From a virus: a stretch of DNA of 35,062 nt. Both the position numbers and the translations under genes were made by a program. Within the stretch, counting starts at the first letter, position 1, and every line of letters starts with the position of its first letter. The DNA lies in the IMG/VR virus record IMGVR_UViG_3300046660_000192, positions 1 through 35,062 of that record; one strand, written 5' to 3'. The notes beneath the pieces were generated by a model. That model was not told the DNA's origin. It made no database searches and was given only the letters and a program-made list of their open reading frames with translations. This document shows, piece by piece, positions 14,086 through 30,828 of the stretch.

Positions 14086-14541
14086 TTACGCCTTGTTCGT
14101 GGCGGTCGGCACGCCGTCGAAGCGGATAGCGATTTCTCGGGTCACCTTCTGTCCCTTGGTGCGTGCGTCAACCACAGACGTCAGCAGCGCGGGACCGGCT
14201 TCCGTTTCCGGGTCGCCCGACAAAGCGGCAGTGTTGCGAATGCGGATGTTCTTGGTCGCGCCGGAATAGAACCAATCGAACATCGCCTTGTTGGACTGTG
14301 CGGCCCATACGCCGGTACCATCGACCGTTACGGTGATCGACCGTACTGCGACTTCGACCGAGACCGGCAACGATTCATCGTCGCAGTACGGAACTTCCGT
14401 CTCGTCAACGTTCGCAGTGCGCGTGACTGTAACGTCAGTGATTCCGCAAAGCGAGGTGTAAACGCCAGGCGAACCGATCGGATCAACCTCAACGTCTAGG
14501 ACTAGTTCTTCATATTTTTCGGTTGCCGCCTTGATAGCCAT
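14086..14541 (-). CDS. Major tail tube protein
   Basis: This 151-aa protein begins MAIKAATEKYEELVLDVEV and contains ITDVTVTRTANVDETEVPYCDD, in parts, then SITVTVDGTGVW and SNKAMFDWFYSGATKNIRI. That alternating beta pattern with a late (I/V)R(I/V)RNT strand belongs to the phage tail tube family of TP901/HK97-like phages. It should polymerise as stacked hexamers. It lies immediately upstream of the chaperone pair, and its start overlaps the end of the 60-aa ORF by 40 bases. Confidence 0.85.
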   Translation of the reverse strand: MAIKAATEKYEELVLDVEVDPIGSPGVYTSLCGITDVTVTRTANVDETEVPYCDDESLPVSVEVAVRSITVTVDGTGVWAAQSNKAMFDWFYSGATKNIRIRNTAALSGDPETEAGPALLTSVVDARTKGQKVTREIAIRFDGVPTATNKA

Positions 14542-14684
14542 ATCGTTGCTTTCCCTGCTTTAACAGCCGCTTCCACAACGTCGCGCGGCAAATTCTGTGG
14601 TTCACTGGACGGCTGCACGACAAATGCAACCGCTTGCGCCGGTCGGCGGTCGAACTCGAAACGCTCGTGAAAAACCGCCTTCAT
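14502..14684 (-). CDS. Small protein before the tail tube gene
   Basis: The 60-aa ORF starts by ATGA overlap with the DUF3168 gene and reads MKAVFHERFEFDRRPAQAVAF, then VVQPSSEPQNLPRDVVEAAV and KAGKATI. The pattern F.FD.RP..AVAF.....P..LPR.VVEAAV.AG is recurrent in short proteins at this spot in alphaproteobacterial phages. Its last 40 bases overlap the tail tube start in another frame, which is unusual, but the conserved-looking core lies before the overlap. The function is unknown, probably a small tail-assembly accessory. Confidence 0.65.
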   Translation of the reverse strand: MKAVFHERFEFDRRPAQAVAFVVQPSSEPQNLPRDVVEAAVKAGKATIWLSRRQPKNMKN

Positions 14685-15079
14685 TCGGGCTCGGGTTCCT
14701 CTATCAACGCTTCAAACTGCACGACGCCGTGATAATTAACACCATCGGGCTCTTGTAACACGGCGCTGCGTACAAATCGAATAGAATGTAACGCGTTATC
14801 CGTCAATTCCCCCGGATACTTATGCAACGAACGTTTCACGAGCCCCATCATATCCTTTAGTTCGGACATGCCAGCCTCACTGTGATAGAGATCGACTTGA
14901 AACTGATGGTTCGTGCCGGTAATACACTCGTCATCGTCTTCCTGGACGTCTTCCGGTCCGAACTCGATAAACGGCATAGACTGTTGCGGGTCCGCGCGAT
15001 CGAACACAGGCCATGTGATCGTCGGATCTGACGTCAGACGGCGGTAAATCATGTCCTGGAGGTCGAGTGACGGCGTCAT
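14681..15079 (-). CDS. DUF3168-family tail completion protein
   Basis: This 132-aa protein has the DUF3168 layout: LQDMIYRRLTSDPTI at the N-terminus, MPFIEFGPEDVQEDDD, then HQFQVDLYHSEAGMSELKDM and a strand-rich C-terminus RSAVLQEPDGVNYHGVVQFEALIE. Family members act as tail terminator or completion proteins at the head-proximal end of the tail. It starts within an ATGA overlap with the HK97 gp10-like gene and is coupled to the next gene in the same way, consistent with the standard connector order. Confidence 0.85.
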   Translation of the reverse strand: MTPSLDLQDMIYRRLTSDPTITWPVFDRADPQQSMPFIEFGPEDVQEDDDECITGTNHQFQVDLYHSEAGMSELKDMMGLVKRSLHKYPGELTDNALHSIRFVRSAVLQEPDGVNYHGVVQFEALIEEPEPE

Positions 15080-15552
15080 ACCATCCCCATTTCTTTGATT
15101 GCTTTGCGAATGGCTCGGGTTAGTTGACCCTTCACCTTCCGTTTATTGTTCCGCCATGTGCTGAAAAAGAACGGGTTTCCGACCCATTTCCGCGTACCGA
15201 ATTCGACCCACCGGGCGTAAAACGCCTTCCGGTCGCCCGCGTAAATGGTCAGTTTGGTAGTACCTTCCTTGGTCAGACCCGTTTGCACGGATCCGAGCGA
15301 AACGGTACCTTTCGGCGCGTCCCCCCACGTCCACCCGATACTGTCACGCAACGCGCCGGGTATGACCGGTTCGCCTTTGTGGCGCTTGTCGCTCCGTATC
15401 TCGGGCGGACCGGCATAGACAGGGGCGCGCGTCTTCATTTGCGCGACCACCTGCGTTGCTGCCTTTTCAAGTGCCTCTTTCACGCGTTGTTCAACGAGCG
15501 CAGGGAACACCACCGTTAATTTCTTCTGGAGTTCCGCAACGCCCTTGACCAT
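15076..15552 (-). CDS. HK97 gp10-like head-tail joining/tail component
   Basis: The 158-aa protein starts with a helical segment (MVKGVAELQKKLTVVF). The gp10-type core follows: KAATQVVAQMKTRAPVYAG, then GALRDSIGW, an AGDRKAFYARWVEFGTRKW block and a terminal basic helix (KGQLTRAIRKAIKEMG). The combination RAPV......LRxSI.......(Y/F)ARWVEFGT is characteristic of the HK97 gp10 family. It sits between the possible decoration protein and DUF3168. It is thought to act in joining tails to heads. Confidence 0.85.
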   Translation of the reverse strand: MVKGVAELQKKLTVVFPALVEQRVKEALEKAATQVVAQMKTRAPVYAGPPEIRSDKRHKGEPVIPGALRDSIGWTWGDAPKGTVSLGSVQTGLTKEGTTKLTIYAGDRKAFYARWVEFGTRKWVGNPFFFSTWRNNKRKVKGQLTRAIRKAIKEMGMV

Positions 15553-15556
15553 GTCG

Positions 15557-16063
15557 TTAAGCGGTACGCGCCAAAATCGCGATCTGGTACAGGGCCGACG
15601 CGCCCGAGCTGTTGACGATCGTCAGAATATCCGCGGTCGTCGCGGTAACAGTCTTGACGCCTGCAGCATCACCGGCCGCAAGGAGGAACACCGCACCAGG
15701 CTTCAACACGAACGGCATAGCCGACGCAAAGACGCCTGCAGCACCGCCGCCGATGGTCAAATCCGTGGTGTTGACAGGTGATCCGGCGCGCGGTTTGTTG
15801 ATGATCATCAGCGCGACGATTTCCGCCGCTGCGACGGTCGCGCCAAACGCATCGGTCAGGACGCCGACCAAATCAAGGCTTTCCGTCGCGCCGGTCGCAA
15901 CTGTGCGCTCGTCCACGAAAGCAATGTTCGCCTTGTTGACTGTCGTTCCGTCCGTCAGTTGAATCAGCGTTTCGAGAACCGGCTTGAATTCCGGCCCACC
16001 GAAATCGTTTGATCCAGATTGGGAAATCTTCAGGCGTGCGAGAATTTCAGCGGTAACGGTCAT
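15557..16063 (-). CDS. Structural accessory protein of the head-tail region
   Basis: This 168-aa protein is rich in Ala, Val, Thr and Gly and probably all-beta. It has IQLTDGTTVNKANIAFVDERTVATGATESLDLVG in parts, then IMIINKP-type strands (ALMIINKPRAGS) and MPFVLKPGAVFLLAAGD. The pattern TDGT...A...F.DERT.A.GA.E.LDL.G recurs in small structural proteins of siphophages. It lies between the head-tail adaptor (ATGA overlap) and gp10. It may be a capsid decoration or connector-associated protein. The exact role is unknown. Confidence 0.6.
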   Translation of the reverse strand: MTVTAEILARLKISQSGSNDFGGPEFKPVLETLIQLTDGTTVNKANIAFVDERTVATGATESLDLVGVLTDAFGATVAAAEIVALMIINKPRAGSPVNTTDLTIGGGAAGVFASAMPFVLKPGAVFLLAAGDAAGVKTVTATTADILTIVNSSGASALYQIAILARTA

Positions 16064-16419
16064 CCGAGTTGTACCCCTTTTTCAACCACAATCTCATAAT
16101 CGCGGCTTCGTTGATCTGGATTTTCGATAGAATAGATGCGGTGCGAAACGTCGCCCGATTGCTCGTGTACAACCATGATGTCAGCCGGTGTGAGCGACCG
16201 AACCGCGTCACATCCCTGCAGCGTGACGAAACCCACCGTTGCGGATTCCAACCGGCCCGCCTGGACACGTTCGCGCCCGCGCTGTGGCTGATACTGGACC
16301 GGCACACGGACCAAGCCGGGAATGTCCGTCCAATGACGCGTTTTCGAACCGCCGACGCCGATCGTGCCGGTATCGCGCTGGAACGTTACACGCTTGGTCA
16401 TGCTCCCCTGTGTTGCCAT
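16060..16419 (-). CDS. Head-tail adaptor (head closure) protein
   Basis: I choose ATG 16419, which overlaps the connector stop as TGATG, giving 119 aa (MATQGSMTKRVTFQRD); a GTG start four codons upstream is less likely. RVTFQRDTGTIGVGGSKTRHW and ARVPVQYQPQRGRERVQAGRLES-like segments fit the phage head-tail adaptor family (SPP1 gp16/HK97 gp7-like). The C-terminus (IYSIENPDQRSRDYEIVVEKG) matches the family's I..I..PD.R.R...I......G ending. It seals the portal exit after packaging. It is coupled to the genes on both sides. Confidence 0.8.
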   Translation of the reverse strand: MATQGSMTKRVTFQRDTGTIGVGGSKTRHWTDIPGLVRVPVQYQPQRGRERVQAGRLESATVGFVTLQGCDAVRSLTPADIMVVHEQSGDVSHRIYSIENPDQRSRDYEIVVEKGVQLG

Positions 16420-16976
16420 CAGAAGGCCCACGTGTGAGGCGCAAGCAACGCCTTGACCGAGAACGGTATCTTTGCCGGGACAGCACCGAACGCCACCGGT
16501 TCGCGGTTACGGTACCAGTGCGCCACAAGGATCTTTATCGCCAGCAGCAACGAATCGGGGACCGTGTCATAACCGTGCGTCGTGACGATCGATATCGGGT
16601 CGTCACGGTCTGTCTCGATCGCCGGAAACGCGAAATCGTTCTTCAGTCGGATATAATCCGGGTAAATCTGATACGACGCCGGGTCTAGCGTCTGTTCGTC
16701 ACCGTCCTCGTCATAATACTTAATCACGGCGTCGGTCGTGTCGGTGAAAATCGTCTCCATTTTACGGCACCACGAGGTGCGCGTTACCTGCCACTCTTGT
16801 TCGACAATGCAGCGGTTCAGGATGCCTTGATATCCGTCCAGGTGCGACACTGCCGCTTTGATGAGTGCGGCAATATAAACGTCATCATCCGTGAACCACG
16901 TCACCCGCAAATGTTCCTTCACCTCTTGCAAGGTCACCGGATCAGTCGCGGGTGCTGTGATAAGCTTCGGCTTCAT
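16419..16976 (-). CDS. Head-tail connector (HK97 gp6/phiE125 gp8-like)
   Basis: The 185-aa protein has the classic start: LITAPATDPVTLQEVKEHLR, then DDDVYIAALIKAAVSHLDGY and a Cys/Trp-rich middle (EQEWQVTRTSWC). A late helix reads LLLAIKILVAHWYRNREPV. The string P..PVTL.E.K.HLRV......D..I..LI.AA...L is diagnostic of the head-tail connector family. It forms a ring under the portal. It overlaps the upstream gene by ATGA and the adaptor by TGATG. Confidence 0.88.
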   Translation of the reverse strand: MKPKLITAPATDPVTLQEVKEHLRVTWFTDDDVYIAALIKAAVSHLDGYQGILNRCIVEQEWQVTRTSWCRKMETIFTDTTDAVIKYYDEDGDEQTLDPASYQIYPDYIRLKNDFAFPAIETDRDDPISIVTTHGYDTVPDSLLLAIKILVAHWYRNREPVAFGAVPAKIPFSVKALLAPHTWAF

Positions 16977-17305
16977 TTCTTCGGCAGACCAGGAAGGCCG
17001 ATCGACGGCACCACCGGGGCGGCAACAGCCTTGTCAGCCGCTTCCTTCTCGGCAACAGCCTTGTCAGCCGCTTCCTTCTCGGCAACAGCCTTGTCAGCCG
17101 CTTCGGACGATTTCGCGCCCTTTGCCTTCAGCTTGTCCGCGACGGACTGCTTTTCTTCCTCGACTTCCGTCGCTTCACCGGCTTCGATAAAGACTTCCCC
17201 GAGCGCGTCGGAAACAGTATAGATAACGCCCTTGGCATACTGACGAACGGTCGCGCCGTCGTCGGCACCCTTCACGCCATCTTTCGCAATCTTAACTTTG
17301 ATCAT
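16973..17305 (-). CDS. Head-region protein with a decapeptide tandem repeat
   Basis: This 110-aa protein begins MIKVKIAKDGVKGADDGATV, then YAKGVIYTVSDALGEVFIEAG, a small beta domain of the type found in short head proteins of phages. The C-terminal half is lysine-, alanine- and glutamate-rich with an AADKAVAEKE decapeptide repeated (EAADKAVAEK EAADKAVAEK EAADKAV), followed by a short hydrophobic tail (PSIGLPGLPKK). The repeat reflects a perfect 30-bp DNA tandem repeat. It lies between the connector and a structural gene. I assume a head accessory or decoration role with a flexible arm. Confidence 0.65.
   Translation of the reverse strand: MIKVKIAKDGVKGADDGATVRQYAKGVIYTVSDALGEVFIEAGEATEVEEEKQSVADKLKAKGAKSSEAADKAVAEKEAADKAVAEKEAADKAVAAPVVPSIGLPGLPKK
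17021..17104 (+). repeat. 30-bp tandem repeat, about 2.8 copies
   Basis: The unit GGCAACAGCCTTGTCAGCCG plus CTTCCTTCTC repeats at 17021, 17051 and 17081. The first two copies are identical over 30 bases and the third diverges after CTTC. It encodes the AADKAVAEKE decapeptide of the 110-aa protein. A multiple-of-three unit keeps the frame, so copy number could vary freely. Confidence 0.95.
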
Positions 17306-17343
17306 CGTCGTTTTACCTTGTTGCGCCGAACGTTACGTGACGG

Positions 17344-17757
17344 TTAGTTGACCGTACCGTGAACGTTCATTTCTTCGATGCAGACAGCGGAGAACGACGC
17401 AGCCGACGCGTTCGCAGCCGGGGTGATCGTCAGGCGCGTGTAGCGCTTGTAGCCGATGTACCCGAGCGTCTTCACGGTGTTGTCGCCGGAGAAAATGAAC
17501 GATGCCAGCGCTTCCGTACCGAGCATATCGGCGTCTGCAACAGCTGCAGCGTCGGAAAGGTTCGCTGCGTCACCTTCTTCAAGCAGGACGGTAAACGTCG
17601 CGTCGGCGTCGACCAGCGAACCGGCGTGAATGACGTAGGTGTGCGACTTCGAGCCGCGATGGTCCTGGATCGCACCGACTGCCGCCGTGTTGTCGGCGGG
17701 GTCGGAATGCAGAACCGGGTTGACGGTAATGTTATTTTTCAGGTCACGGGGTGCCAT
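17344..17757 (-). CDS. Small structural protein next to the major capsid gene
   Basis: The 137-aa protein starts MAPRDLKNNITVNPVLHSD and has an all-beta look with DHRGSKSHTYVIHAGSLVDA, then FTVLLEEGDAANLSDAAAV, DADMLGTEALASF and a final Y..YKRYTRLTITPAANASA strand pair. That Y.GYKRY.RL...P pattern is common in small proteins encoded just after the major capsid gene in this phage type. It may be a capsid decoration protein. It lies downstream of a hairpin after the capsid gene. Confidence 0.65.
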   Translation of the reverse strand: MAPRDLKNNITVNPVLHSDPADNTAAVGAIQDHRGSKSHTYVIHAGSLVDADATFTVLLEEGDAANLSDAAAVADADMLGTEALASFIFSGDNTVKTLGYIGYKRYTRLTITPAANASAASFSAVCIEEMNVHGTVN

Positions 17758-17787
17758 GTGGGTTTTCCCTTTCAGAGAGTAGCGAAA

Positions 17788-17807
17788 GGGGCGGGATTAA
17801 CCGCCCC
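17788..17807 (-). terminator. Hairpin between capsid gene and the 137-aa gene
   Basis: GGGGCGG (17788-17794) and CCGCCCC (17801-17807) form a perfect 7-bp stem with a 6-base loop. On the minus strand it is followed by only TTTCGC, so termination would be partial at most. It may attenuate transcription past the abundant capsid gene or act as an RNA stabiliser. Confidence 0.45.
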
Positions 17808-17825
17808 AAGGTCAGCCAGTGGCCG

Positions 17826-19157
17826 TTACGAAGCGGCGAATTTCATGAACTTCGCGGAATCGAAGTCCATCGCGTCACCACCGATCCGCTTGGTGGTGTA
17901 GAGCTTCACAAAGCCCTTTTCTGTGTAAGGGTCGCGAAGAACGCGGATCCCCATACGGTCAACGATCTGGTATGCAGCCTTGAAATCACCGAAGCCGATG
18001 GACAGCGCGTTCGAAGCGATGTCGGGCATATCTTCGGCTTCAACGATGCCGTAACCGAGAAGCGCGCCGCCCTGACGCTGCGAGAAATCAGGCTGCCACA
18101 GGTAGTTTCCGTCGCCGTCCTTCAGCGTGCGGATGTAACCGAGCGTCTTCCGGTTCATAGTGAAGTTCGCGTTTGCCCGATAGCCGGCCTTCAGTGCAAA
18201 GACGAGGTTGATCAGGAAATCGGTGTTCGTGATCGAACCGGTAGCGCCGGAAGCGATGTGTTCCCAAACCTGCCAAGCGCGGGTAGCGTCGGCGGTCGCA
18301 GCCGTGGAATAGGTCAGCAGACCGCGTGGCTTGTTGTTGCCGTCGCCAGAGAACGACGCGGAATTTTCGGTACGAGCGAACTTGTCGGCAACCTTGCCGG
18401 AAAGCCAGCCTTCGATATCGAAGCCGGAATCGTCCAGCAGCTTCTGCGTCACCTTCGGCATGGCGTACTGTTCGTGAACGTCGATGCGCCATTTGCCAAG
18501 CTCGGGCGTGTCGGTCTCGGGGCGCGCCTGCTTTTCACCGACCCAACCGGTCGTCAGGTCGTCACGGTCGATAAGACCTTCCATCGCGTCCGTGCCGATT
18601 GAAACGACGCTGAAAAGCTGACGTGCCGGGGACGTTTCGAAAATCTTCTTGATGATACGGCCGGAAAGATCCGGGGTGACGGTGTAGCCGCCTGCCGGGT
18701 CGCTGCCGACTTCCATCAGGTTACGGACTTCCGAGAAACGGCGATTGTCCGCGCCGACGCGCATATAGGTATCGAGACCACTGGCATACTTGCCAAGGTC
18801 TTCGGCGCTCACGTCCTGACCGACAGTTTTCGAAAAATCGCGGGCTGCTGCCTGGATATCAGCCGACGCACCGGATCCGGCAAGATCGCTTGCGGCGAAC
18901 TTTTCCATGATACGACCGATTTCGGCCTGAACGTCGGTCAGCGCATTGTTGATCTTGTCGACCTTTTCGGCCTGAACCGGGTCGTTTTTGCCCGCTTCGA
19001 TCGCCTTCAGGCGGTCATCATTGGCGGTCTTGAACTCAGCAAACGTCTTGTTGAACGTTTCGAGCATTGCCTTGACTTCCGGCGTTTCGGCACGGACACC
19101 GGCAGCACCGAGACCGCGGAACGACGCGGAATTCATCATACGGTTATGGATGGTCAT
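17826..19157 (-). CDS. Major capsid protein, HK97 fold
   Basis: The 443-aa protein has an N-terminal helical delta domain (~30-120, ETFNKTFAEFKTANDDRLKA) with a processing region before the mature fold. Then come the HK97 hallmarks: VGSDPAGGYTVTPDLSGRII, FETSPARQLFSVVSI, TGWVGEKQARPETDTPELGK in parts, MPKVTQKLLDDSGFDIEGWL and FSGDGNNKPRGLL. The late part has GFGDFKAAYQIVDRMGIRVLRDPYT and F.KLYTTKRIGGD. It builds the icosahedral head; the upstream ClpP-like protease probably removes the delta domain. GAGGG precedes the start. Its promoter probably lies in the 176-bp gap shared with a plus-strand gene. Confidence 0.93.
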   Translation of the reverse strand: MTIHNRMMNSASFRGLGAAGVRAETPEVKAMLETFNKTFAEFKTANDDRLKAIEAGKNDPVQAEKVDKINNALTDVQAEIGRIMEKFAASDLAGSGASADIQAAARDFSKTVGQDVSAEDLGKYASGLDTYMRVGADNRRFSEVRNLMEVGSDPAGGYTVTPDLSGRIIKKIFETSPARQLFSVVSIGTDAMEGLIDRDDLTTGWVGEKQARPETDTPELGKWRIDVHEQYAMPKVTQKLLDDSGFDIEGWLSGKVADKFARTENSASFSGDGNNKPRGLLTYSTAATADATRAWQVWEHIASGATGSITNTDFLINLVFALKAGYRANANFTMNRKTLGYIRTLKDGDGNYLWQPDFSQRQGGALLGYGIVEAEDMPDIASNALSIGFGDFKAAYQIVDRMGIRVLRDPYTEKGFVKLYTTKRIGGDAMDFDSAKFMKFAAS

Positions 19158-19214
19158 GTTTTACCCTCGCGTTTATCAAATCTCGTATGACTTGCATCGC
19201 GCGGGGTCATATTC

Positions 19215-19310
19215 GTTACGGTGTAACATTCACAGTGTGGCGTGACAATAGGTGTTGTTATTTTATCCAAAACTGTTGACACACGTAACGCTGTGTAATA
19301 TGAATGTTAC
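19215..19310. promoter_or_regulatory. Back-to-back promoters with operator-like inverted repeats
   Basis: On the plus strand TTGACA (19276-19281) is 17 bases from TATGAA (19299-19304). A GTAAC...GTTAC inverted repeat (19285-19310) covers the spacer and the -10. On the minus strand, towards the capsid gene, TTGTCA has a TACACC-like -10, and GTTACGGTGTAAC (19215-19227) forms a tight inverted repeat. Both sides share the words TGAATGTTACA followed by YC. A common regulator for both directions is plausible. Confidence 0.5.
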
Positions 19311-19332
19311 ATCAACAACGGAGACGAATGAA

Positions 19333-19563
19333 ATGAAAAATATCGCCGAGAACAAAGCCGCTGTTGACCAAAAAATGAAATCGGTCAAAGCACACTGCAT
19401 GTGTGCGAAATTCGAAGACGACGGGCGTTATTTTCGTGTCATTTACCCGCACGGTGATTTCGCTACGCACGGCGCGCAAGCAAATTACGGAGACGGCAAA
19501 GCCATCGCTCTTGATCGCCTTCTAGCCGTGATGGAACGCCACTGGACGCAGTCGTTCCTTTAA
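19333..19563 (+). CDS. 76-aa protein inserted against the capsid operon (moron)
   Basis: The start at ATG 19333 has GGAGA eight bases upstream (19320-19324). The 76-aa product reads MKNIAENKAAVDQKMKSVKA, then HCMCAKFEDDGRYFRVIYPH and GDFATHGAQANYGDGKAIAL, ending RLLAVMERHWTQSFL. It is small and soluble with an HCMC pair that could bind metal, but I recognise no family. It is the only plus-strand gene inside the head cassette, with its own promoter. Its stop TAA shares the palindrome TTAA with the protease stop, a four-base tail-to-tail overlap. Expression from the prophage is likely but unproven. Confidence 0.75.
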   Translation: MKNIAENKAAVDQKMKSVKAHCMCAKFEDDGRYFRVIYPHGDFATHGAQANYGDGKAIALDRLLAVMERHWTQSFL

Positions 19564-20405
19564 CCCTTCATCGTCGCCATGAGGTTTTCAAATTCACGGC
19601 TGATATCTGGTGCTGGTTCTTCCCGACCGTTCATTTTCGCGAACGCGTCGGCGCGATCCTTGCGGGAAAGACCAGCTTTCGCCATCGCAGCCTCCACGCG
19701 GCGGCGCGCTACGATCGCTTCGCGCTTATCCTGTGGAAGACTTGCCGAGGCCGTCGCGTCATCCTCGAATTCGCCGTCAGCAAATTTCAGTTCGACCGCT
19801 TCGGCAGCGGTCATCCACGTACCGTCGCTGCGACGATTCGGACCAGCAAGCATGGCGATGATTTTCGCCTCGTCCAGTCCGGTACGGGCCGCATAGACCG
19901 CCGCAAGAGATTTGTCGATTTTGTTAAAGACGGTCGCGCCTTCCTCCAGGTCGTCCGCATTCCCGATGATGACGCCCCAGGCTTTGTGCACCATCATCAT
20001 GGATCCGGTCGCCATGTGGATTTCGTCACCGGCCATTGCGATCACACTGGCAGCACTTGCCGCAATACCACGCACGCGTACCGTTACCTTTGCCGGGTGG
20101 TCGCGCAGCTGGTCATAGATCGCCAGTCCGTCGAACACGCTCCCGCCAGGTGAATTGATGTTCACTGTGACGTCGCGCGGGCCGATGTTCCGCAGGATTC
20201 CGGCCATCTTGACGTCAGAGAAACCATCACCGAACCAGTCTTCACCGATCCGCTCATAAATATTGATGGTTGTATCGTCGGACGTCGCCGCGGCGTAAAC
20301 CCGGTCCGTCCATTCTTCGAGCGCCGCACTCGGGGCGTCATAGTCGTACCATGCGGGTTGACGCGCCATAATGCGACCCTTGGGGAGATTCTTCAGGAGG
20401 CTCAT
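19560..20405 (-). CDS. ClpP-like prohead protease (S49/S14 family)
   Basis: The 281-aa protein shows VTVNINSPGGSVFDGLAIYD (79-98), the serine loop GIAASAASVIAMAGDE with the likely nucleophile Ser117, and MMMVHKAWG with His140. These define a ClpP-type phage head protease. The C-terminal ~80 residues are charged and helical and may bind the scaffold or capsid. It should cleave the delta domain of the capsid precursor during maturation. It is coupled to the portal gene by ATGA (20402-20405) and precedes the capsid gene, as in HK97-like phages. Confidence 0.9.
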   Translation of the reverse strand: MSLLKNLPKGRIMARQPAWYDYDAPSAALEEWTDRVYAAATSDDTTINIYERIGEDWFGDGFSDVKMAGILRNIGPRDVTVNINSPGGSVFDGLAIYDQLRDHPAKVTVRVRGIAASAASVIAMAGDEIHMATGSMMMVHKAWGVIIGNADDLEEGATVFNKIDKSLAAVYAARTGLDEAKIIAMLAGPNRRSDGTWMTAAEAVELKFADGEFEDDATASASLPQDKREAIVARRRVEAAMAKAGLSRKDRADAFAKMNGREEPAPDISREFENLMATMKG

Positions 20406-21658
20406 TTGTCGTCATCCTCTAATGGCGGACCGCCGTTATGTCCGATATCGGGGTTTTGGTTCGGGGGAGCGGCGTATTCATCGCCTTCGGGGTCGGTACG
20501 CGGGTTCATGTCGAGCAGCGCGCGGACGTCGTTCGCACTGTAGACGCCCCACTGGCGACCAGCTGTGAATGCCGCCCATTGTGCCTTGCTGTCACCCTTC
20601 AGCAGTCCTTGCGTGAAGAACCGAACGTCCAAGGTGTCCCAGTCGCGTTCATTGATCGTGTCGCGCTTCAGCGCCTCTTGCCACATCACAAGCCAATCGT
20701 TCAGCGTGTACGTGACAAAGCCGATGTTCTGTTGCTCGATACCCGAGCCCCACGAGGTCGTTTTCTCGGTCGCCCCGATCATATGGGGCGGAACACCGAA
20801 GAACATGGCGATGTCGTATCGCTGGAAATCACGGGACTGGATAAACTGGAGGTCGTTAGCGGACATCGACGTTTTGACGAGATCCGCGCCTTCCTCAAGA
20901 ATGGCGGTCTTTCCGGTGTTATCGACGCCGGACTTGCGACCCTCCCAAGATTCTTTGAGGCGGTTGTACGCCTCTTTCGACATGGTTTCGGGGTGCTTGA
21001 TAACGGTGTCGATAAACGAACCGTTCTTCATCAGCGTAGCGGCGGCAACTTCGCCGTCGATCGCGATACCGAGCGATTCCCGCATATGCGACAGAACAGA
21101 CAGACCGGAATAGCCGTTCAGCGACAAGCCGCGCAAATGCAGCACGTCCGCCGACCGATAGACCTTCAAGGACCCGTCAGCCGCCGTAACTGTGTATTTC
21201 ATCTGGAGGCTGTTTTCTTGCTCGATCAGCACCCGGTCAGGATGAATCGGGATGAGTGCGACGACTTCCCCGAGCGCCTTGACTTTCACAGCGACCGCGT
21301 TCCCGCGCAACATGACGTGTGCCTGCATGAGCTGTTTGAATTCTTTCGGGGTTTGCCAGGCGTTCGGACGGACCGTCAGCACGCGACGCAATGGATGCCC
21401 CACGGCAGGCTTACGGACGTCCTCGCTTTCGCGGCGAATGATGTCCATCGGAAGCCACGACACGACGCCTGAAATGATGGTCGTGCAACGGTACGCCGCT
21501 GCGACCTTCATCGCGCTATTCTCGGTAATCGAGCGTCCGCTAATAGATGTGTTCGAACCGTCACGCAGGAAGTCGCGGATTTCCGTATCGGTCGCGCTGG
21601 TGACGTTGATCGTCTGCCCTATGGCCGCGCGAAAAGCCGATGTCAGAATATTCGCCAA
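20402..21658 (-). CDS. Portal protein, HK97 family
   Basis: The 418-aa protein has AMKVAAAYRCTTIISGVVSW, then PLRRVLTVRPNAWQTPKEFK, MLRGNAVAVKVKALGEVVAL, IPIHPDRV and VLHLRGLSLNGYSGLSVLSH, the standard portal series. It also has DIAMFFGVPPHMIGATEKTT and LEQQNIGFVTYTLNDW-like text. The start is TTG 21658 (MANILTSAFR) with GGGGA nearby; the overlapping ATG is out of frame. It forms the dodecameric packaging and ejection channel. The extreme C-terminus reads DIGHNGGPPLEDDDK, a motif also found in the large terminase of this phage. Confidence 0.92.
   Translation of the reverse strand: MANILTSAFRAAIGQTINVTSATDTEIRDFLRDGSNTSISGRSITENSAMKVAAAYRCTTIISGVVSWLPMDIIRRESEDVRKPAVGHPLRRVLTVRPNAWQTPKEFKQLMQAHVMLRGNAVAVKVKALGEVVALIPIHPDRVLIEQENSLQMKYTVTAADGSLKVYRSADVLHLRGLSLNGYSGLSVLSHMRESLGIAIDGEVAAATLMKNGSFIDTVIKHPETMSKEAYNRLKESWEGRKSGVDNTGKTAILEEGADLVKTSMSANDLQFIQSRDFQRYDIAMFFGVPPHMIGATEKTTSWGSGIEQQNIGFVTYTLNDWLVMWQEALKRDTINERDWDTLDVRFFTQGLLKGDSKAQWAAFTAGRQWGVYSANDVRALLDMNPRTDPEGDEYAAPPNQNPDIGHNGGPPLEDDDK
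20411..20449 (-). repeat. IGHNGGPPL-tag coding repeat, copy in the portal gene
   Basis: CGGACCGCCGTTATGTCCGA (20426-20445) differs at one base from CGGACCGCCGTTATGACCGA (23341-23360) in the large terminase gene. Both are in the same coding frame and give IGHNGGPxL followed by acidic residues. The tag is at the C-terminus of portal and near residue 57 of the terminase. Confidence 0.9.
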
Positions 21659-21729
21659 ACCGGCATTCCCCGAGTGAAACGTTACACGTGCGTTAACGTG
21701 ATATCAAACACAGTGGCACGTTACAACCC
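21659..21729. promoter_or_regulatory. Operator-like gap between large terminase and portal
   Basis: This 71-bp noncoding gap is unusual in an otherwise tightly packed operon. It has CGTTACA at 21680-21686 and 21719-21725, plus a central GCGTTAACGTG and inverted CACGT words. No clear sigma-70 promoter is evident on the minus strand. It may be an operator or a secondary promoter for portal onwards. Confidence 0.4.
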
Positions 21730-23526
21730 TTACACCATGAGTATCCCACGGCTTTCATACACCGACTTGTTGTCCTCGATTAACATCCAGCGGGCCATTG
21801 CCATGATCTTTGCAACCGGTCCGTCAATTTTGTTCTCGACACGGTCCTTGTTGGGATAATCGTTGTCCTTCCGGTCGGGCTTGCTGACCACGTTCGACAG
21901 CATCCAGGTGTAAACCGGGTCACCGTTGTGGGCGATTGCGCGCGACCGTATCAGCGCCTCGATTTCTTTCATCGGTTCGGAGAAGTTCAGCACGAGCGGC
22001 GCAACTTCTACGCACGGGATACCTTCAGCGATCAATTCCGAGACCATCATTCGCGCCTGGTGCTGGTCAAAAGCCAGTTCTTCAAGCTGGAATTGATCGC
22101 GATCGTCTAGAATTTCGTCGCGGATCTGGACATAATCGATCATGTCGCCGGGGGTGTCAGTTATCCAATTATCACCCACCCACCCCTGATAATGCTCATT
22201 TTCACCAAGGGAAACCGTCTTTTCAGGCAGGTAATACCGGCCGAAACTTGCGTACTTGTACCCCTCATCCTGCAAAATCTTCGCAATGTCACAATTGCAC
22301 TGATCAAGCCGAAACAGGTACATTTTCGCCGCAATGTCCACCTTTGACGCAAGGTCAAGCCCGATCTTCACCGGCTGATTGTGGAACATGTCGAGCGTCA
22401 GCGTCGGTTTCGCGGATTCCCTCCAACGCTGGATATTGAAATACGCGTTGCGCGCTTGCACCCACAGGTTCAGGTGCTTGGTCTTGAACGCGCCGACCTT
22501 ACGGGCGTTCTGTATCGCGTCCTTCTGCATCGACTTGAGAAATTCGCCGCGGATCGATACGTCATAATTCGGGTTCGCCTGGAGCAGTGCAAGCTCAGTG
22601 GTCCAATCGACGTCGGGATCTGCGGAATAGATGATACCGAAAAGTTCCTCGTTAGGTGTGACCCCTTCAAGCATCTTCTCGACTTCCTGTTGCATCGCGT
22701 AACACGGACCGGCGATATTGTCGCCAGCTGTGGAAATGATCAACAGCAGCGGTTGATCACGCGCACCCATGCCGGTCTCAAACGTCGATACCATCGCGTC
22801 TGTGTCATGCTCGTGATACTCGTCCACGATCGCGCATGACGGGCTTGCGCCGTCGCCAGGGTTGCCGACAACTGTTTCAAACTTCGCACCGTCAGCCAGC
22901 TTATAGAGGTTCGACCCGGCACCCTTTCCGGTTTCGACGCCATAATACGCCGTCAGTGCCGGGGAGTTCTTCGCCATGAGGCGCGCGGGCTTGAAAACCT
23001 CCCACGCCTGCTTTTCGTTCGTCGCTCCGCTGTAAACTTCAGCGCCGAATTCATTATCCGCGCATAGCATGTACAGACCGACAGCCGCGGCCCATGCGGA
23101 CTTGCCGTTCTTGCGGCTTTCCAGCACAAACGCCTTACGAAACCGTCGAAGGCCGTCGCTGGCACGTTTCCAACCGAAAATGCACATGGTTTTGAAACAC
23201 TGCCACGGTTCCATGACCAGTTTCTGCCGTTTTGCAGCCCATTTTCCCTTCGTGTGGGGCAACAATTCTATGAAATTGCACGCTTTTTCAGCGGCTTTTG
23301 GGTCAAAAAAGTACGGAAAAACGTCCTCGTCATCCAAAGACGGACCGCCGTTATGACCGATCGACGCCCGGTCCAGGTCGTCCAAATGGCGCTTACAGGC
23401 TAGTTTTACCCACTTTCCGGCCACAACCGCCCCGGATAGGACATCACGAGCGTATTGCGTACCCTTCTCGACATGCGTCCAGGCGGGCGCGGCTTTCGGA
23501 ATGACACCGGGCGGGTAACCGAGCAT
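21730..23526 (-). CDS. terL: Terminase large subunit
   Basis: I choose ATG 23526 (MLGYPPGVIPKAAPAW, 598 aa), which follows the 58-aa gene stop by one base, over a TTG start at 23577 that would lie inside that gene. Residues ~40-52 (KWVKLACKRHLDDL) are the usual P27-type start. Walker A is SRKNGKS (137-143) after FRKAFVLE; Walker B is CAIVDEYHEH. KIGLDLASKVD and ELAFDQHQARM carry nuclease-domain acidic residues, and the end has RWMLIEDNKSVYESRGI. It is the ATP-driven packaging motor and genome-cutting nuclease. Unusually, IGHNGGPSLDDED is inserted near residue 57, between the N-terminal region and the ATPase. Confidence 0.92.
   Translation of the reverse strand: MLGYPPGVIPKAAPAWTHVEKGTQYARDVLSGAVVAGKWVKLACKRHLDDLDRASIGHNGGPSLDDEDVFPYFFDPKAAEKACNFIELLPHTKGKWAAKRQKLVMEPWQCFKTMCIFGWKRASDGLRRFRKAFVLESRKNGKSAWAAAVGLYMLCADNEFGAEVYSGATNEKQAWEVFKPARLMAKNSPALTAYYGVETGKGAGSNLYKLADGAKFETVVGNPGDGASPSCAIVDEYHEHDTDAMVSTFETGMGARDQPLLLIISTAGDNIAGPCYAMQQEVEKMLEGVTPNEELFGIIYSADPDVDWTTELALLQANPNYDVSIRGEFLKSMQKDAIQNARKVGAFKTKHLNLWVQARNAYFNIQRWRESAKPTLTLDMFHNQPVKIGLDLASKVDIAAKMYLFRLDQCNCDIAKILQDEGYKYASFGRYYLPEKTVSLGENEHYQGWVGDNWITDTPGDMIDYVQIRDEILDDRDQFQLEELAFDQHQARMMVSELIAEGIPCVEVAPLVLNFSEPMKEIEALIRSRAIAHNGDPVYTWMLSNVVSKPDRKDNDYPNKDRVENKIDGPVAKIMAMARWMLIEDNKSVYESRGILMV
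23341..23361 (-). repeat. IGHNGGPSL-tag coding repeat, copy in the large terminase gene
   Basis: This is the second copy of the 21-bp block, with one substitution against the portal copy at 20426-20446. It encodes IGHNGGP, with SLDDED downstream. The two copies are 2.9 kb apart. Confidence 0.9.
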
Positions 23527-23527
23527 G

Positions 23528-23704
23528 TCAGCGACCCCGACGAAGGTTAAGCACCCGCAAGACGCCGTATTTGCCAACTTTCCACGACAAACGAATTTTC
23601 AACGGGATGTGTTTTTCAAACATCACCCTGCCACCGACGTACCAAGCTACATCGGGGCGACGTGCGATAATCAAAGGCTGGCGTACCGACCGCGTCCGCA
23701 TCAT
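23528..23704 (-). CDS. 58-aa basic protein between small and large terminase
   Basis: The start ATG 23704 overlaps the small terminase stop as ATGA and the stop lies one base before the large terminase ATG. AGGA precedes the start. The 58-aa product is very basic and aromatic: MMRTRSVRQPLIIARRPD, then VAWYVGGRVMFEKHIPLKI and a C-terminal LNLRRGR. It fills a gap that would otherwise be non-coding in a tightly coupled operon. It may bind DNA or the terminase; no family is recognised. Coupling and codon frame are the evidence. Confidence 0.7.
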   Translation of the reverse strand: MMRTRSVRQPLIIARRPDVAWYVGGRVMFEKHIPLKIRLSWKVGKYGVLRVLNLRRGR

Positions 23705-24168
23705 TCCTGGTCCAGTATCGCAAACGGATTATCCGGCTTGTTGCCGAGCTGCGCACTGACCCGCGATCGTGCCGCGGGTGACAGACCAAATTCGATCAAC
23801 AGCGATTGAGCGTGTCGCATTGCCTCGTTACGCATGGCAACTTCCGGTCGTGACTTCCACAGTCCCGATTTCGGATGCAAGTAAATGTACCCTTCCGATT
23901 CAATCGTCCAGCTGTGTTCCTCAACCTCCTGTAGCCGAGACGCCAGCAGTGAAAGCATGGGGACATCTTCAACGTTCAGAATTTTCATTCCGATCATCGA
24001 CAATGCCAGCTGACGGAATAATTCGGCGGCTCGAAAATTCAGGTAATCGGGCGGTGAAGGAATGTATGACGGGACATTCGCAGCCGGTGAATTATCCGCG
24101 TCACGGCACGACTGGTGCGTGCCTTTCAATTGTTTCAACGCCGTAGGTAACGGCCTGGACCCGCCCAT
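23701..24168 (-). CDS. terS: Terminase small subunit, P27-like
   Basis: The 155-aa protein begins MGGSRPLPTALKQLKGTHQ, then has NVPSYIPSPPDYLNFRAAEL, LSMIGMKILNVEDVPMLSLL and a helical stretch around EVEEHSW. It ends with MRNEAMRHAQSLLIEFGLSP, then AARSRVSAQ. The P..L....A...F..L......L...D.P.L..LA and FGLSPAARSRV signatures are typical of the P27 (terminase_4) small subunit. It recognises the packaging site and recruits the large subunit. It lies directly upstream of the 58-aa gene and the large terminase, three bases after the preceding gene's stop. Confidence 0.9.
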   Translation of the reverse strand: MGGSRPLPTALKQLKGTHQSCRDADNSPAANVPSYIPSPPDYLNFRAAELFRQLALSMIGMKILNVEDVPMLSLLASRLQEVEEHSWTIESEGYIYLHPKSGLWKSRPEVAMRNEAMRHAQSLLIEFGLSPAARSRVSAQLGNKPDNPFAILDQE

Positions 24169-24607: not shown

Positions 24608-24943
24608 CTATTCACCTTCTGTCAAACTCTGTTCCATCCGCTGTTTTGTGCGGGTGTGACACGGATAATCACACAAGCACTGGAGGTTCTCCGGATCTGA
24701 AAACAACTCCCAATCGCCGCGGTGCGGTGTTCTGTGATCGACAACCAGGCGGCGCGTCTCGTGACCCCAATTCCGCCCGCACATCTGGCAAGCGTAGTTG
24801 TCACGTTTCATCGTCTTCGGTCGAAGAACGGTCGTCCAAAGCCGCCGCTTGTACCAGAGCCGCCACACCCGTTCGTCAGCAACCACATGCCGGGTTGCCC
24901 CGGTCGGTCGCTGCGTTTTGTGTGTGGGCGGGGAGAACGGCAC
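24608..24943 (-). CDS. HNH endonuclease of the packaging module
   Basis: I choose GTG 24943 (MPFSPPTHKTQRPTGATRHV), with GAGG at a good distance, giving 111 aa. An ATG at 25015 would read through a promoter-like and operator-like stretch. RDNYACQMCGRNWGHETRRL holds the first Cys pair. LVVDHRTPHRGDWELFSDPE contains the H of the HNH core, and NLQCLCDYPCHTRTKQRM supplies the second zinc pair and the closing His. HNH proteins next to terS/terL are required for packaging-site cleavage in HK97-like cos phages, so this one probably takes part in terminase action rather than homing. Confidence 0.85.
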   Translation of the reverse strand: MPFSPPTHKTQRPTGATRHVVADERVWRLWYKRRLWTTVLRPKTMKRDNYACQMCGRNWGHETRRLVVDHRTPHRGDWELFSDPENLQCLCDYPCHTRTKQRMEQSLTEGE

Positions 24944-24967
24944 GACTACCTCAAATGTATTACGGGG

Positions 24968-25015
24968 CGTTACATGTGTTACACTGTTATGACGGATTGT
25001 GCCGCATGATGTCAA
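24968..25015 (-). promoter_or_regulatory. Candidate late-operon promoter with tandem operator words
   Basis: Reading the minus strand, TTGACA (25015-25010) is 17 bases from TCATAA (24992-24987). Downstream lie GTGTAAC and CATGTAACG, that is CGTTACATGTGTTACA on the plus strand (24968-24983). The HNH gene starts at 24943. This is a plausible start for the late transcript and would be controlled by a GTAAC-binding regulator. Confidence 0.5.
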
Positions 25016-25439
25016 CGCTTGATTGCATTTTTATCATAATAATTAATAACCTTGTAACGTTATAACGGACCATCCGGCCCGCCAACCGTTGTTTCTGGAT
25101 CGGATCGACAGGGGTCGTCAACCCGAAAACTAGTGAGTAATGTTATAACAACGGATTTTGTCCAGACGGTGCATCAGCGGAAATGTGCCTTGGGGGCCGG
25201 TCCGTACCAAATCGACCTCTAGACTTTCGACCCACCCCCGGTACCCATCATCAACCGTTCGACAGCCGGTCCTTGACGCGGCGTTGCCCTGTGACGCGTG
25301 TCGTCGGTGTGTCAGCCGTCCGCATTCGTTACACCTGCCGATGACGCTCTGTGACGCCCTATTACAATCCATAATTATCCTCGACCATCCATAATTATCC
25401 ACCATCATCCACAGTGCCACCTCTCAATGACCCGTTCTG
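25016..25439. other. Gene-poor region before the AT-rich stretch
   Basis: This 424-bp stretch has TGTAACG at 25053 and CGTTACA at 25327, near-palindromic GTTATAAC words (25058, 25142) and the phased 14-mers below. A 96-codon minus-strand frame (25130-25420) exists with a CNECG motif, but it has no ribosome site I trust and begins inside the repeats. A packaging (cos/pac) site could also lie here next to the HNH/terS genes, but nothing in the sequence identifies it. Confidence 0.4.
25367..25400 (+). repeat. Phased 14-bp direct repeats near a DnaA-box-like site
   Basis: ATCCATAATTATCC occurs at 25367-25380 and 25387-25400, exactly 20 bases apart. The second copy runs into ACCATCATCCACAG. TTATCCACC (25395-25403) matches the DnaA box TTATNCACA at eight of nine positions. 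This is a candidate part of a replication origin or of an initiator-binding site. Confidence 0.6.
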
Positions 25440-25872
25440 ATCCACTATCGGTCCATGTCTCTTTGATCGATACACAACATTAATAAGACATCCTATTGAA
25501 ATAGATAGAATACTTCTAGTTGTGTTAACACCGTATAATAATCATATAAAAGAGCGTACATCGTTGATTCTATTATCTATTTAACTATTATTAACTACTA
25601 AGTCTCAATAAAGTAATATAGAAAAGGTATACATAAGGGAAACGTGTATACCGTATATGTGTCATAATCATACGATACGGACATTCCCTATAGAGAGTAA
25701 TAGGAAGGGGAGTCTTTTTATAACCGAAAACGCTATACGGCACGGGATGAGTGAGCTTAACCAATGGGTTATTCCGTGTCTCGATAGCTATCTGTTAAGA
25801 CGCCTATACGGAGCTTGACACGCCTCGTTGACAGCGTTACGTGTGGTGAAACGGTATAAGTGAGGTTATAAA
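25440..25872. other. AT-rich noncoding stretch with CCGTATA/TATACGG iterons, candidate origin
   Basis: The 433-bp region is visibly AT-richer than the rest and holds no credible ORF. CCGTATA occurs at 25531-25537 and 25651-25657, and its complement TATACGG at 25734-25740 and 25805-25811, with related words such as GATACGG and GGTATAAG. TTGACA occurs at 25815-25820 and 25828-25833, followed by CGTTACG and GGTATAAG before the AP2-like gene. A DNA-unwinding element plus iterons next to a DnaA-like box suggests an origin; this is inference. Confidence 0.45.
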
Positions 25873-26445
25873 ATGATACTGGTCGGCACGGTGGAAATTT
25901 ATGGGATGAATTTATCCGCTCGGATGGAAATAAACGACAAGCGTATAATTATACGACCACGAGCGTATAAATTACCGAGCGGAAAATGGCGCGCGTATAA
26001 AACTGTGGATGGGGTGCAGAAGGCGTTCGGTACTCATGACACGAAAGAGCAAGCGTTAATCGCAGCTCGACTGGAACGAAAACCGGCGTCACGAAAATCC
26101 GGGGGTGCACTCGGGGTGTATCGTAAAGCCAGTAAGACCGAGAACGGCATGTGGCGTGTGGTGTTGACCATAGAGCGGCGCACAGTGCGACTTGGGGAGT
26201 ATGCGACGTACGGTCATGCTATCCTTGTCCGTGACGTCGTGGCGCGCCGCTGTGGTATGCGGGCACACGTGATGGAATATGAAATGCCACTGTGGCTAGT
26301 GTCGAACCCTGTCGCCCGTTCGTATATCCTGGACAGGGTGCATGAGCCGACGCCGTCACAGGTCAACGAATATCTGCAGCGTGTGAATGAATTGAACCAC
26401 AGCGGCGCGCCTGTGACGCTGGACGCGGAGAGAATGGTGATATGA
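25873..26445 (+). CDS. AP2-like DNA-binding protein with two domains
   Basis: ATG 25873 follows GAGG by seven bases. The 190-aa protein has two similar units. Unit one (~32-70) reads YKLPSGKWRAYKTVDGVQKA and FGTHDTKEQALIAARLERK. Unit two (~81-128) reads GVYRKASKTENGMWRVVLTI and RRTVRLGEYATYGHAILVRD. Both show the AP2/ERF-like plan: three strands with (G)KWRA, a LG.(F/Y).T strand and a helix with A..AR(D/L). The remaining ~60 residues are helical with no known motif. Phage AP2 domains usually sit in homing endonucleases or transposon-type proteins; this one stands alone next to the candidate origin. An initiator or regulator role is inferred. Confidence 0.65.
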   Translation: MILVGTVEIYGMNLSARMEINDKRIIIRPRAYKLPSGKWRAYKTVDGVQKAFGTHDTKEQALIAARLERKPASRKSGGALGVYRKASKTENGMWRVVLTIERRTVRLGEYATYGHAILVRDVVARRCGMRAHVMEYEMPLWLVSNPVARSYILDRVHEPTPSQVNEYLQRVNELNHSGAPVTLDAERMVI

Positions 26446-26588: not shown

Positions 26589-26918
26589 ATGCAAATTCAT
26601 GCAATGTTGGAAACGCGCCGTGCGCAGATCCTGACCGAACTCGAAACGCTCCAGGCGGAACTAGCCGAGATTGATCGCATGATGTCAGGCGGCACGGTTG
26701 TGACGAAACATCCGGTCGGCGCAGTACCCGAAACCAAGGATGAAGCGATTCTCCAGGCGATCACCGCGGGCAACAGAACACCGGCTGCGATATCGGAATT
26801 CATCCGGTCGAAACTCGGTATGCCCGTTAATCCCGCATCCACGCGCACCAGGTTATCGCGGATGAAATCGGCCGAGAAGATTTCGCACGATGGCGCGGGT
26901 TGGAAACTGAAGGACTAA
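26589..26918 (+). CDS. Coiled-coil plus winged-helix-like protein
   Basis: The 109-aa protein has an N-terminal coiled coil (MLETRRAQILTELETLQAEL, AEIDRMM). A linker follows, then a winged-helix-like domain of ~55 residues: KDEAILQAITAGNRTPAAIS, EFIRSKLGMPVNPASTRTRL and SRMKSAEKISHDGAGWKL. The last part, an L.RL...G.I....G.WKL-type wing, fits small regulators of phage early regions. It has its own strong promoter and is closed by a strong terminator, so it is a monocistronic unit. It may be a transcription regulator that dimerises via the coiled coil. Confidence 0.75.
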   Translation: MQIHAMLETRRAQILTELETLQAELAEIDRMMSGGTVVTKHPVGAVPETKDEAILQAITAGNRTPAAISEFIRSKLGMPVNPASTRTRLSRMKSAEKISHDGAGWKLKD

Positions 26919-29453: not shown

Positions 29454-29477
29454 TGTGCTACAAATCGTGTAACAAGT
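29454..29477. promoter_or_regulatory. Operator-like element at the integrase start
   Basis: TGTGCTACAAATCGTGTAAC (29454-29473) plus AAGT is the second copy of the element at 29276. It lies just before, and touches, the integrase start, where a bound repressor would block integrase expression. Confidence 0.55.
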
Positions 29478-30828
29478 GAACATGAAAAGGTGCATATTGC
29501 GAATCACCCAACCTAAGCTTGACCCGATGCGGTACCTTTCGGCGCGCGGGTCAAAGTGGAGTTATGTACGGCGCGTTCCCGGTCACTTCTCTTTGCTGGA
29601 CGATCGAGGAACTATCCGCGTTTCGCTCAAGACCTCATCTGTGGATGTGGCGAAACTTCGACGGGACGCGCTGGAACGGGCGGATGATCTGTTCTGGCAA
29701 GGTCTGGCGATCAACGACCAAGCGCAAGCGTCCCACGCACAGTACGCCGCGGCAAAGGCTCGGGCGATCGCGCTCGGGTTCGAATACAAAGCCGCTGCCG
29801 ATATTGCGGAGACATCCACGGTTGAGGAAATCATACGACGCATCACAGCAGCCGCAGCGGCACCGCGTGACGCCGACGCCGCAATAGGGTTGGCCGACGA
29901 ACCACAGCTGACCGTGCGGCAAGTCCTGACCCTCTACACGGAAGAAATAGCCGCAGACGAGCTTCAGGGGATGAGCGAAACACAGGTTCGTAAATGGGGC
30001 GAAATCAAACTGAACGCCGTCGAACAGTTTTGCACGATCGTCGGGGATAAAGCGTTGCTCGATATCACCCGTGACGACGCGCACAAGTTCCACCGGCATT
30101 ATCTGGACCGGGTGAAGTCTCGAGACTTATCGGGGAACACGGCTAACCGTCAGTTCGGAAACATGCGCAAGCTGTTCCGAGAGTATACGAAATACATGCA
30201 AATCGACGTTCAGAACCCGTTCGAAAAGCTCTCGTATGCGGATCCGAAGCGGCACCGGAAAATCGTTCCACCGTTTGAGACCGCCTATATCCGTGACACG
30301 TTCCTGAAGGGCGAAGCATTGCGCGGTCTGAATCGAGGGGCGCGCTTGATCTTCCTGGCTATGGTGGAAACCGGTTGCAGACCATCCGAGCTGTGTAACA
30401 TTCGGCCCGAGAATATCCACCTTGACGCCGCGGTGCCGTACCTGTCGGTCACATTCGTGGATGATAGGCGACTGAAGACGGAAAACAGCGTTCGCAAGGT
30501 GCCGTTGGTCGGTGTGTCGCTGGAGGCGATGAAGCGGGCAAAGAACGGTTTCCCGCGGTATCTCGACAAAGAGGGGAACTTTTCAAACGCTGCGATGAAG
30601 TTCTTACGGGAAAATGAATTACTGCCGACCGTCAACCACAGGGTTTATTCGATCCGGCACAGCTACGAGAAAAGAATGCTTGAAGGCGGGATGGATGACG
30701 AGTTCCGCCGCCGCACGCTCGGGCATGACACGAACCGGCCGGAATACGGTGACGGTGGGGCGCTGACGTGGCGCGCGGAACAGATGGAAAGGATTGCCCT
30801 AACGTTTGATAAAGCGATATTCGATTAA
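29476..30828 (+). CDS. int: Tyrosine integrase (site-specific recombinase)
   Basis: The frame opens at GTG 29476; ATG 29482 or ATG 29527 (MRYLSARGSKWSYVRRVPGH) are alternatives, and the last matches the usual DUF6538-type start. Up to 450 aa: an N-terminal arm domain (RYLS.RGSKW.YVRRVP), a core-binding domain (~145-240, VLTLYTEEIAADELQ) and a catalytic domain. Catalytic residues (numbered from 29476) are Arg302 in TGCRPSEL, Lys334 in RRLKTENSV, Arg394-His395 in YSIRHSY, His417 in LGHDT and Tyr424 in PEYGDGG. The first His of box II is Tyr, common in this subfamily. It integrates and, with accessory factors, excises the prophage. It is convergent with the primase gene; the stops share TTAA. 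Confidence 0.9.
   Translation: MNMKRCILRITQPKLDPMRYLSARGSKWSYVRRVPGHFSLLDDRGTIRVSLKTSSVDVAKLRRDALERADDLFWQGLAINDQAQASHAQYAAAKARAIALGFEYKAAADIAETSTVEEIIRRITAAAAAPRDADAAIGLADEPQLTVRQVLTLYTEEIAADELQGMSETQVRKWGEIKLNAVEQFCTIVGDKALLDITRDDAHKFHRHYLDRVKSRDLSGNTANRQFGNMRKLFREYTKYMQIDVQNPFEKLSYADPKRHRKIVPPFETAYIRDTFLKGEALRGLNRGARLIFLAMVETGCRPSELCNIRPENIHLDAAVPYLSVTFVDDRRLKTENSVRKVPLVGVSLEAMKRAKNGFPRYLDKEGNFSNAAMKFLRENELLPTVNHRVYSIRHSYEKRMLEGGMDDEFRRRTLGHDTNRPEYGDGGALTWRAEQMERIALTFDKAIFD

Follow-up and report, generated by a model that had tools for sequence, protein, structure and literature searches.

A candidate stem-loop replication origin beside a probable cos site in a family of Rhizobiales phages

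How phages with a primase-polymerase/SF3-helicase replicase choose the site at which replication starts is an open question, which we address here. The closest described system is pRN1, in which a stem-loop of about 100 nt is essential for replication; its sequence is variable, while its fold is kept and its flanks are conserved (PMC4234260). In relatives of pRN1, the stem-loop is the sole segment without sequence conservation, and yet its fold is retained; the same kind of origin was suggested by the pRN1 authors for the Bordetella phage BIP-1 (PMC4234260). In the literature that we found, the stem-loop idea so far draws on a single archaeal plasmid family plus one phage that was inspected. 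The six related phages described below carry a pRN1-like signature, so that the idea could be tested directly in a bacterial system.

The initial annotation of this locus had proposed a replication origin built from paired 14-mers, a DnaA box, an AT-rich block, and CCGTATA words, with the adjacent AP2-like protein as initiator or origin regulator. We favor, with moderate confidence, a reading in which the locus combines a cos site with a pRN1-like stem-loop origin and the replicase of the phage acts as the initiator. A candidate origin is thus retained as the leading hypothesis by virtue of the AT-rich block, a hairpin, and a pRN1/NrS-1-class replicase rather than the CCGTATA words and 14-mers, which are missing in relatives.

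The phage family and its replicase

The window analyzed here is a whole IMG/VR contig of 35,062 nt, representing a temperate phage whose structural genes run leftward and whose early genes run rightward. Its two arms are separated by a 923-bp gap (24950-25872), the longest in the contig (next longest, 253). A query with the large terminase retrieved five close viral contigs (81 to 87% identity at the protein level) and a near-identical fragment, L002. The whole gap and a homologue of the AP2-like gene are present in four of these five; the fifth breaks inside the gap and carries a partial AP2 gene at its opposite end. An additional prophage relative, L019, lies within a contig of a Rhizobiales bacterium, and the family consists of viruses of Rhizobiales bacteria. 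Comparison of the gap was based on six phages (the window, L003, L004, L006, L018, and L019), which are few and mutually related. Gene order in the relatives is the same as in the window, and no relatives at the DNA level were found among phage and plasmid records. The main features of the arms are as follows.

21730-23577, leftward late operon: large terminase
23701-24168, leftward late operon: small terminase
24608..24949, minus strand: HNH endonuclease of the packaging module (Pfam HNH and PHROG matches), heading the leftward late operon
25873..26445, plus strand: two-domain AP2-like protein of 190 aa, with AP2 units at residues 30-67 and 81-126 and a conserved C-terminal part
26589..26918, plus strand: g2, a small conserved neighbor of 109 aa, present in all relatives at 53 to 57% identity
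30825..33101, minus strand: replicase with an archaeo-eukaryotic primase (AEP), an NrS-1-type helix-bundle, and an SF3-type helicase, the proposed initiator

For the HNH open frame, homology in the relatives begins near residue 20 to 23. No Pfam or PHROG family match was found for g2. The fragment L002, a separate metagenome contig, is 99.7% identical across 9 kb (window 14484-23469), which places the phage in a second assembled record. The orientation of the integrase gene (29476-30828) relative to the AP2 gene is reversed compared with L003 and L004, and this module seems to have been inverted or exchanged. An attP site inside the gap was judged unlikely because the contig ends of relatives adjoin the integrase.

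The replicase is 75 to 88% identical in all six relatives searched and matches PF22763 (4e-23) and DUF5906 (8.5e-16). PDB "Primase" chains, which we take to be NrS-1 polymerase entries, were matched in both its primase and its helicase halves. By these matches, it belongs to the AEP, helix-bundle, and SF3 class and is related to the NrS-1 and pRN1 ORF904 primase-polymerase-helicases. The likeness to the NrS-1 phage primase-polymerase (PMC8718748) lies in the homologous helix-bundle PF22763 and in the chain matches to both halves; the recognition motif of NrSPol, TTTGGTTA, was however not found when searched for in the phage gap.

Conserved and private elements of the gap

Among the six phages, only three parts of the gap are conserved in sequence: the probable cos site, the AT-rich block, and, at the far left, the side of the late promoter. 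From left to right, the gap contains the following elements.

25010..25015, minus strand: -35-like TTGACA, putative promoter of the leftward HNH/terminase operon, surrounded by CGTTACA operator words
25150..25245: probable cos site, a 55-bp core (25150-25204) plus flank, with a GC-rich block at 25158-25245
25367..25446, plus strand: paired 14-mers and three DnaA-like boxes, a window-specific cluster
25395: DnaA-like box TTATCCACC
25405: DnaA-like box TCATCCACA
25438: DnaA-like box TGATCCACT
25455..25491: AGACAT/ATGTCT words (25455, minus strand; 25486, plus strand), showing the greatest excess over expectation of any word in the post-cos gap
25543..25625: conserved AT-rich block, GACATCATTGATTCTATTATCTATTTAA...GTCTYAATAAA, a candidate unwinding or initiator-binding element
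25636..25689: hairpin followed by CTATAGRGG, conserved in position and variable in sequence, the candidate stem-loop origin
25815..25843, plus strand: promoter-like TTGACA-17-TACGTG upstream of the AP2 gene; an operator word, CGTTAC, lies at 25834

The AT-rich block noted previously is borne out: no other 200 bp of the contig is as AT-rich as positions 25471-25670, whose GC content is 27% (contig mean, 55%). Mean pairwise identity in the conserved block is 55 to 75%, versus 30 to 45% in its surroundings. A scan of viral contigs with the AT-rich core word gave 62 matches, and the flanking GTCTYAA accompanied it only in four known relatives. RAGACAT words are kept in the gaps of the relatives, and in the post-cos gap of the six phages together AGACAT/ATGTCT occurs 17 times versus 2.85 expected, a density of 2 to 4 per kb as opposed to 0.1 to 0.4 per kb elsewhere. 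This count partly reflects shared descent of identical copies, yet each phage has 2 to 4 copies, at differing places.

The segment adjoining the AT-rich block is only 36 to 43% identical, yet it folds into a hairpin in all six phages, with unrelated stems:

window: AGGGAA/TTCCCT
L003: TGTACC/GGTACA
L004: TACCATACCATA/TATGGTATGGTA
L006: CATATGGG/CCTATATG
L018: GTGCAC
L019: TATAGGGACA/TGTCCCTATA

With RNA parameters, the combined Stouffer z for the six phages is -5.1, in a frame that was picked after viewing the sequences. When the frame was slid over 35 positions of the gap, which lessens this bias but leaves some of it, scores of -4.1 and -4.4 were reached at the hairpin only, and non-overlapping places gave -2.1 or weaker. 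DNA parameters gave z values of -1.7 to -3.1 in all six; the weakest hairpin is that of L003 (-0.6 with RNA and -1.7 with DNA parameters).

These properties bear directly on the comparison with pRN1. As there, a replicase of the AEP, helix-bundle, and SF3 class is encoded by the same replicon, and a stem-loop is kept in fold but not in sequence between conserved flanks and without iterons, L003 being the weakest case. The phage stem-loop is however shorter (about 55 nt versus 100) and lies 5 kb from the replicase gene, whereas those of pRN1 and BIP-1 are located just 3' of it; at that place in the phage, 28 frame positions gave nothing below -1.8. Furthermore, the phage hairpin has a cos site and an AP2 gene as neighbors, and it is a candidate element, while essentiality is established for pRN1.

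The other elements in the initial annotation are all real, and each is singly above chance. The 14-mer ATCCATAATTATCC occurs exactly at 25367-25380 and 25387-25400, 20 bp apart, and none of 500 shuffles of the region gave any such repeat. What had been described as one DnaA box is in fact three same-strand DnaA-like boxes in 52 bp, each with one mismatch to the E. coli or Caulobacter consensus; no second such cluster exists in the 35 kb, and simulation of 60 sequences produced none. CCGTATA/TATACGG is present in four copies within 281 bp (25531, 25651, 25734, and 25805) where 0.2 are expected (P ~0.002 for the word itself, 0.008 to 0.04 if any word is allowed). In the relatives, the picture is different. 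The 14-mer pair is absent from all five and is private to the window, and CCGTATA was not found in the gap of any of them. The equivalent place holds zero or one DnaA-like box in each: L018 and L019 retain TCATCCACA only, L003 has one different box, and L004 and L006 have none. A test for lineage-specific words was significant in the window and L004 only, and the L004 word is explained by its own hairpin. A DnaA-driven, oriC-like origin was rejected because the box cluster is not conserved, and CCGTATA was rejected as an AP2 operator because the gaps of the relatives lack it.

Analysis of GC skew, which had been proposed as a check, does place the cumulative minimum in the gap, but gene directions flip there, and third-position skew shows no consistent replicative flip. 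For these reasons, GC skew was rejected as an origin marker.

The packaging site and satellite-like elements

The GC-rich block adjoins the HNH/terminase genes and shows a mean pairwise identity of 71 to 87% across the six phages; it is very probably the cos packaging site. The strongest sign comes from two satellite-like prophage elements, L094 (14,028 nt) and L095 (11,810 nt), in which the 55-bp core is 87 to 95% identical. No recognizable terminase was found in either element, and because the core is common to the phages and to these terminase-less elements, we read it as the packaging site: a conserved GC-rich site beside HNH/terminase genes that is common to packaging parasites. In samplings of genomes, the core was present in 1 of 397 and 1 of 396, the same genome both times. 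The Rhodobacter phage RcapNL and the Caulobacter phage W2 likewise have a cohesive end near HNH/terminase genes, but the candidate sequence is unrelated to their cos regions.

Both elements encode an integrase, portal, protease, capsid, tape-measure protein, and primase/D5-helicase, a satellite-like layout that would suit a capsid-forming satellite. The tape-measure protein is their own and is homologous to that of the window (11405-13534); such a gene would be unusual in a capsid-forming satellite.

The two elements provide a natural comparison, with cos in common, the primase half in common in one of them, the helicase half different, and iterons at the same place. The L094 primase is 57% identical to the phage replicase over the first 303 residues and 24% identical in the helicase/C-terminal part; D5_N and Pox_D5 domains are found in both L094 and L095, and the phage replicase is without them. 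An unbiased repeat scan of each whole element revealed exactly one iteron array. In each case, the array lies between cos and the gene of the replicase, in the segment next to cos where the phages have the origin candidate. The two arrays are mutually different and are therefore not sites of a shared terminase. Given the shared cos, the altered replicase half, and iterons at the same spot, the C-terminal half and the cis-element have changed together while cos remained constant. This behavior is reminiscent of the PLE satellites, in which the DNA-binding domain of RepA covaries with the origin (PMC8263062). The arrangement also resembles the iteron origins of P4/PICI-type satellites, with an origin candidate beside cos and an SF3-type helicase replicase, except that the iteron array is absent from all phages here: scans for at least three to four short phased direct repeats found no arrays in the phages outside coding repeats.

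The proposed mechanism and its alternatives

In the mechanism that we infer from computed conservation, position, folding, and protein families, covering replication function, identity of the initiator, and the AP2 target, the gap would be a cis-acting control region with several components, lying between the two phage arms. Its order from left to right would be the late-operon promoter, cos (~25150-25245), the origin (~25450-25700), and the AP2 promoter, the origin consisting of the conserved AT-rich block, repeated AGACAT half-sites, and the adjacent hairpin of preserved shape. The replicase would recognize the conserved AT-rich flank, assemble at the hairpin, melt the AT-rich DNA, and prime synthesis, as has been proposed for pRN1/ORF904. 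The AP2 protein may bind somewhere in the gap, as a transcriptional regulator or an accessory origin-binding protein.

We favor this stem-loop origin because the longest gap also holds the most AT-rich segment of the contig, because the shape of the hairpin is kept despite a variable sequence and only at that place, and because the replicase is of the class of pRN1, whose stem-loop is essential. It is also favored by the concentration of AGACAT in the gap and by the satellites, in which the cis-element has changed along with the C-terminal half of the replicase.

Part of the same evidence could be accommodated by transcription control. Here, the gap would be an early/late switch plus a packaging site, with the AT-rich block and hairpin as regulator-binding DNA governing the AP2 gene and the late operon and with AP2 as an autoregulator. 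The gap indeed sits between divergent operons, where an AT-rich control region is also expected around early regulatory sites, a point against the origin reading; the AP2 gene lies immediately downstream. The TTGACA/CGTTACA layout before the HNH operon is the same in the relatives, and the TTGACA-17-TA pattern before the AP2 gene recurs at the equivalent place, consistent with their serving as promoters. The word ACGTTACA is the top intergenic-enriched word across the family (35 versus 3.5 expected) and is dispersed phage-wide (e.g., 24969, 24978, 25053, 21681, 27008, and 29279). It accompanies TTGACA promoters, inside them or next to them, frequently in the palindromic form TGTAACGTTACA, and flanks both gap promoters; together, the two form a candidate phage-wide operator set. 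However, these operators and promoters occupy the ends of the gap, whereas the AT-rich block and hairpin are in its interior, before the AP2 promoter. Moreover, AGACAT, in contrast to the dispersed ACGTTACA, was not found at other phage promoters. We therefore regard pure transcription control as rather unlikely, though still to be taken seriously. In the intergenic regions of the relatives L097 to L102, another pattern, TGACATnATGTGTCATCA / GTGACACTAAATGACAT, recurs in promoter regions and is possibly a second operator family.

The assignment of the AP2 protein rests on several lines. As previously annotated, its gene starts directly downstream of the motif region, at 25873, and has two domains. 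The structure model contains two strand-strand-strand-helix units, a fold search retrieved AP2/ERF phage proteins in BFVD with probability 1.0, and PHROG 99 (the AP2 part of HNH endonucleases) was matched in all six members, Pfam AP2 in two of the six (best, 1.5e-7). AP2 DNA-binding domains are shared with HNH-AP2 homing endonucleases (IPA-HNH type, PMC10448857; PHROG 99), from which the phage protein differs by its pair of AP2 units with a conserved C-terminal part, by the lack of an HNH match (only the AP2 part of PHROG 99 was matched), and by a gene fixed beside the cos/origin candidate in all relatives. The suggestion that AP2-like domains are used here outside homing endonucleases thus holds as far as the missing HNH domain is concerned; it is not new, as stand-alone phage AP2 proteins are already annotated.

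That this protein is itself the initiator, opening the origin via CCGTATA or other words of the gap, finds some encouragement in the adjacency of its gene in all six phages with the gap, in a true two-domain AP2 fold without nuclease, and in the AT-rich block, which co-occurs with AP2 and is missing from the cos-sharing satellites. We nevertheless consider it very unlikely, and the initiator role originally considered for AP2 finds no support: the CCGTATA words are not conserved, and the phage has a replicase whose class is self-initiating, at 75 to 88% identity versus 40 to 50% for AP2 among relatives. To our knowledge, there is no AP2-domain initiator. A helper or regulator is the more likely role, with AGACAT and ACGTTACA as candidate targets, although the palindrome TGTAACGTTACA would suit an HTH repressor better. 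Conceivably, a two-domain AP2 module derived from a homing endonuclease whose nuclease was lost has turned into a dedicated origin-binding factor and licenses the stem-loop origin for the NrS-1-type replicase, and a cos-origin-regulator cassette is swapped as a unit among phages and satellites that exchange the C-terminal half of the replicase along with the origin; we rate this scenario as doubtful, less improbable than AP2 as the initiator.

It is just as improbable as the latter that the AT-rich block and hairpin serve in packaging, as terminase or IHF sites extending cos. They do lie 300 to 450 bp from the cos core, and cos regions often contain AT-rich bending sites, but in L094 and L095, presumably packaged by the same terminase, nothing beyond the 55-bp core is retained and the sequence on this side is unrelated, and no consensus IHF site was recognized in the block by eye. 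Least probable of all is that the hairpin is part of an RNA (a small RNA, leader, or antitermination element), since a structure retained without sequence, as in many RNAs, and folding scores that hold with RNA parameters are set against the lack of an Rfam match or terminator-like site in the region and a position upstream of the AP2 promoter-like site.

Two further observations concern the leftward arm. A perfect 30-bp coding repeat (17020-17104, 2.8 copies) lies inside the gene at 16973-17305. A rightward gene (2911-3612) is located amid the leftward tail genes, and its product has an N terminus (IPARGGSKRIPKKN) that we take to be typical of sugar-acid cytidylyltransferases.
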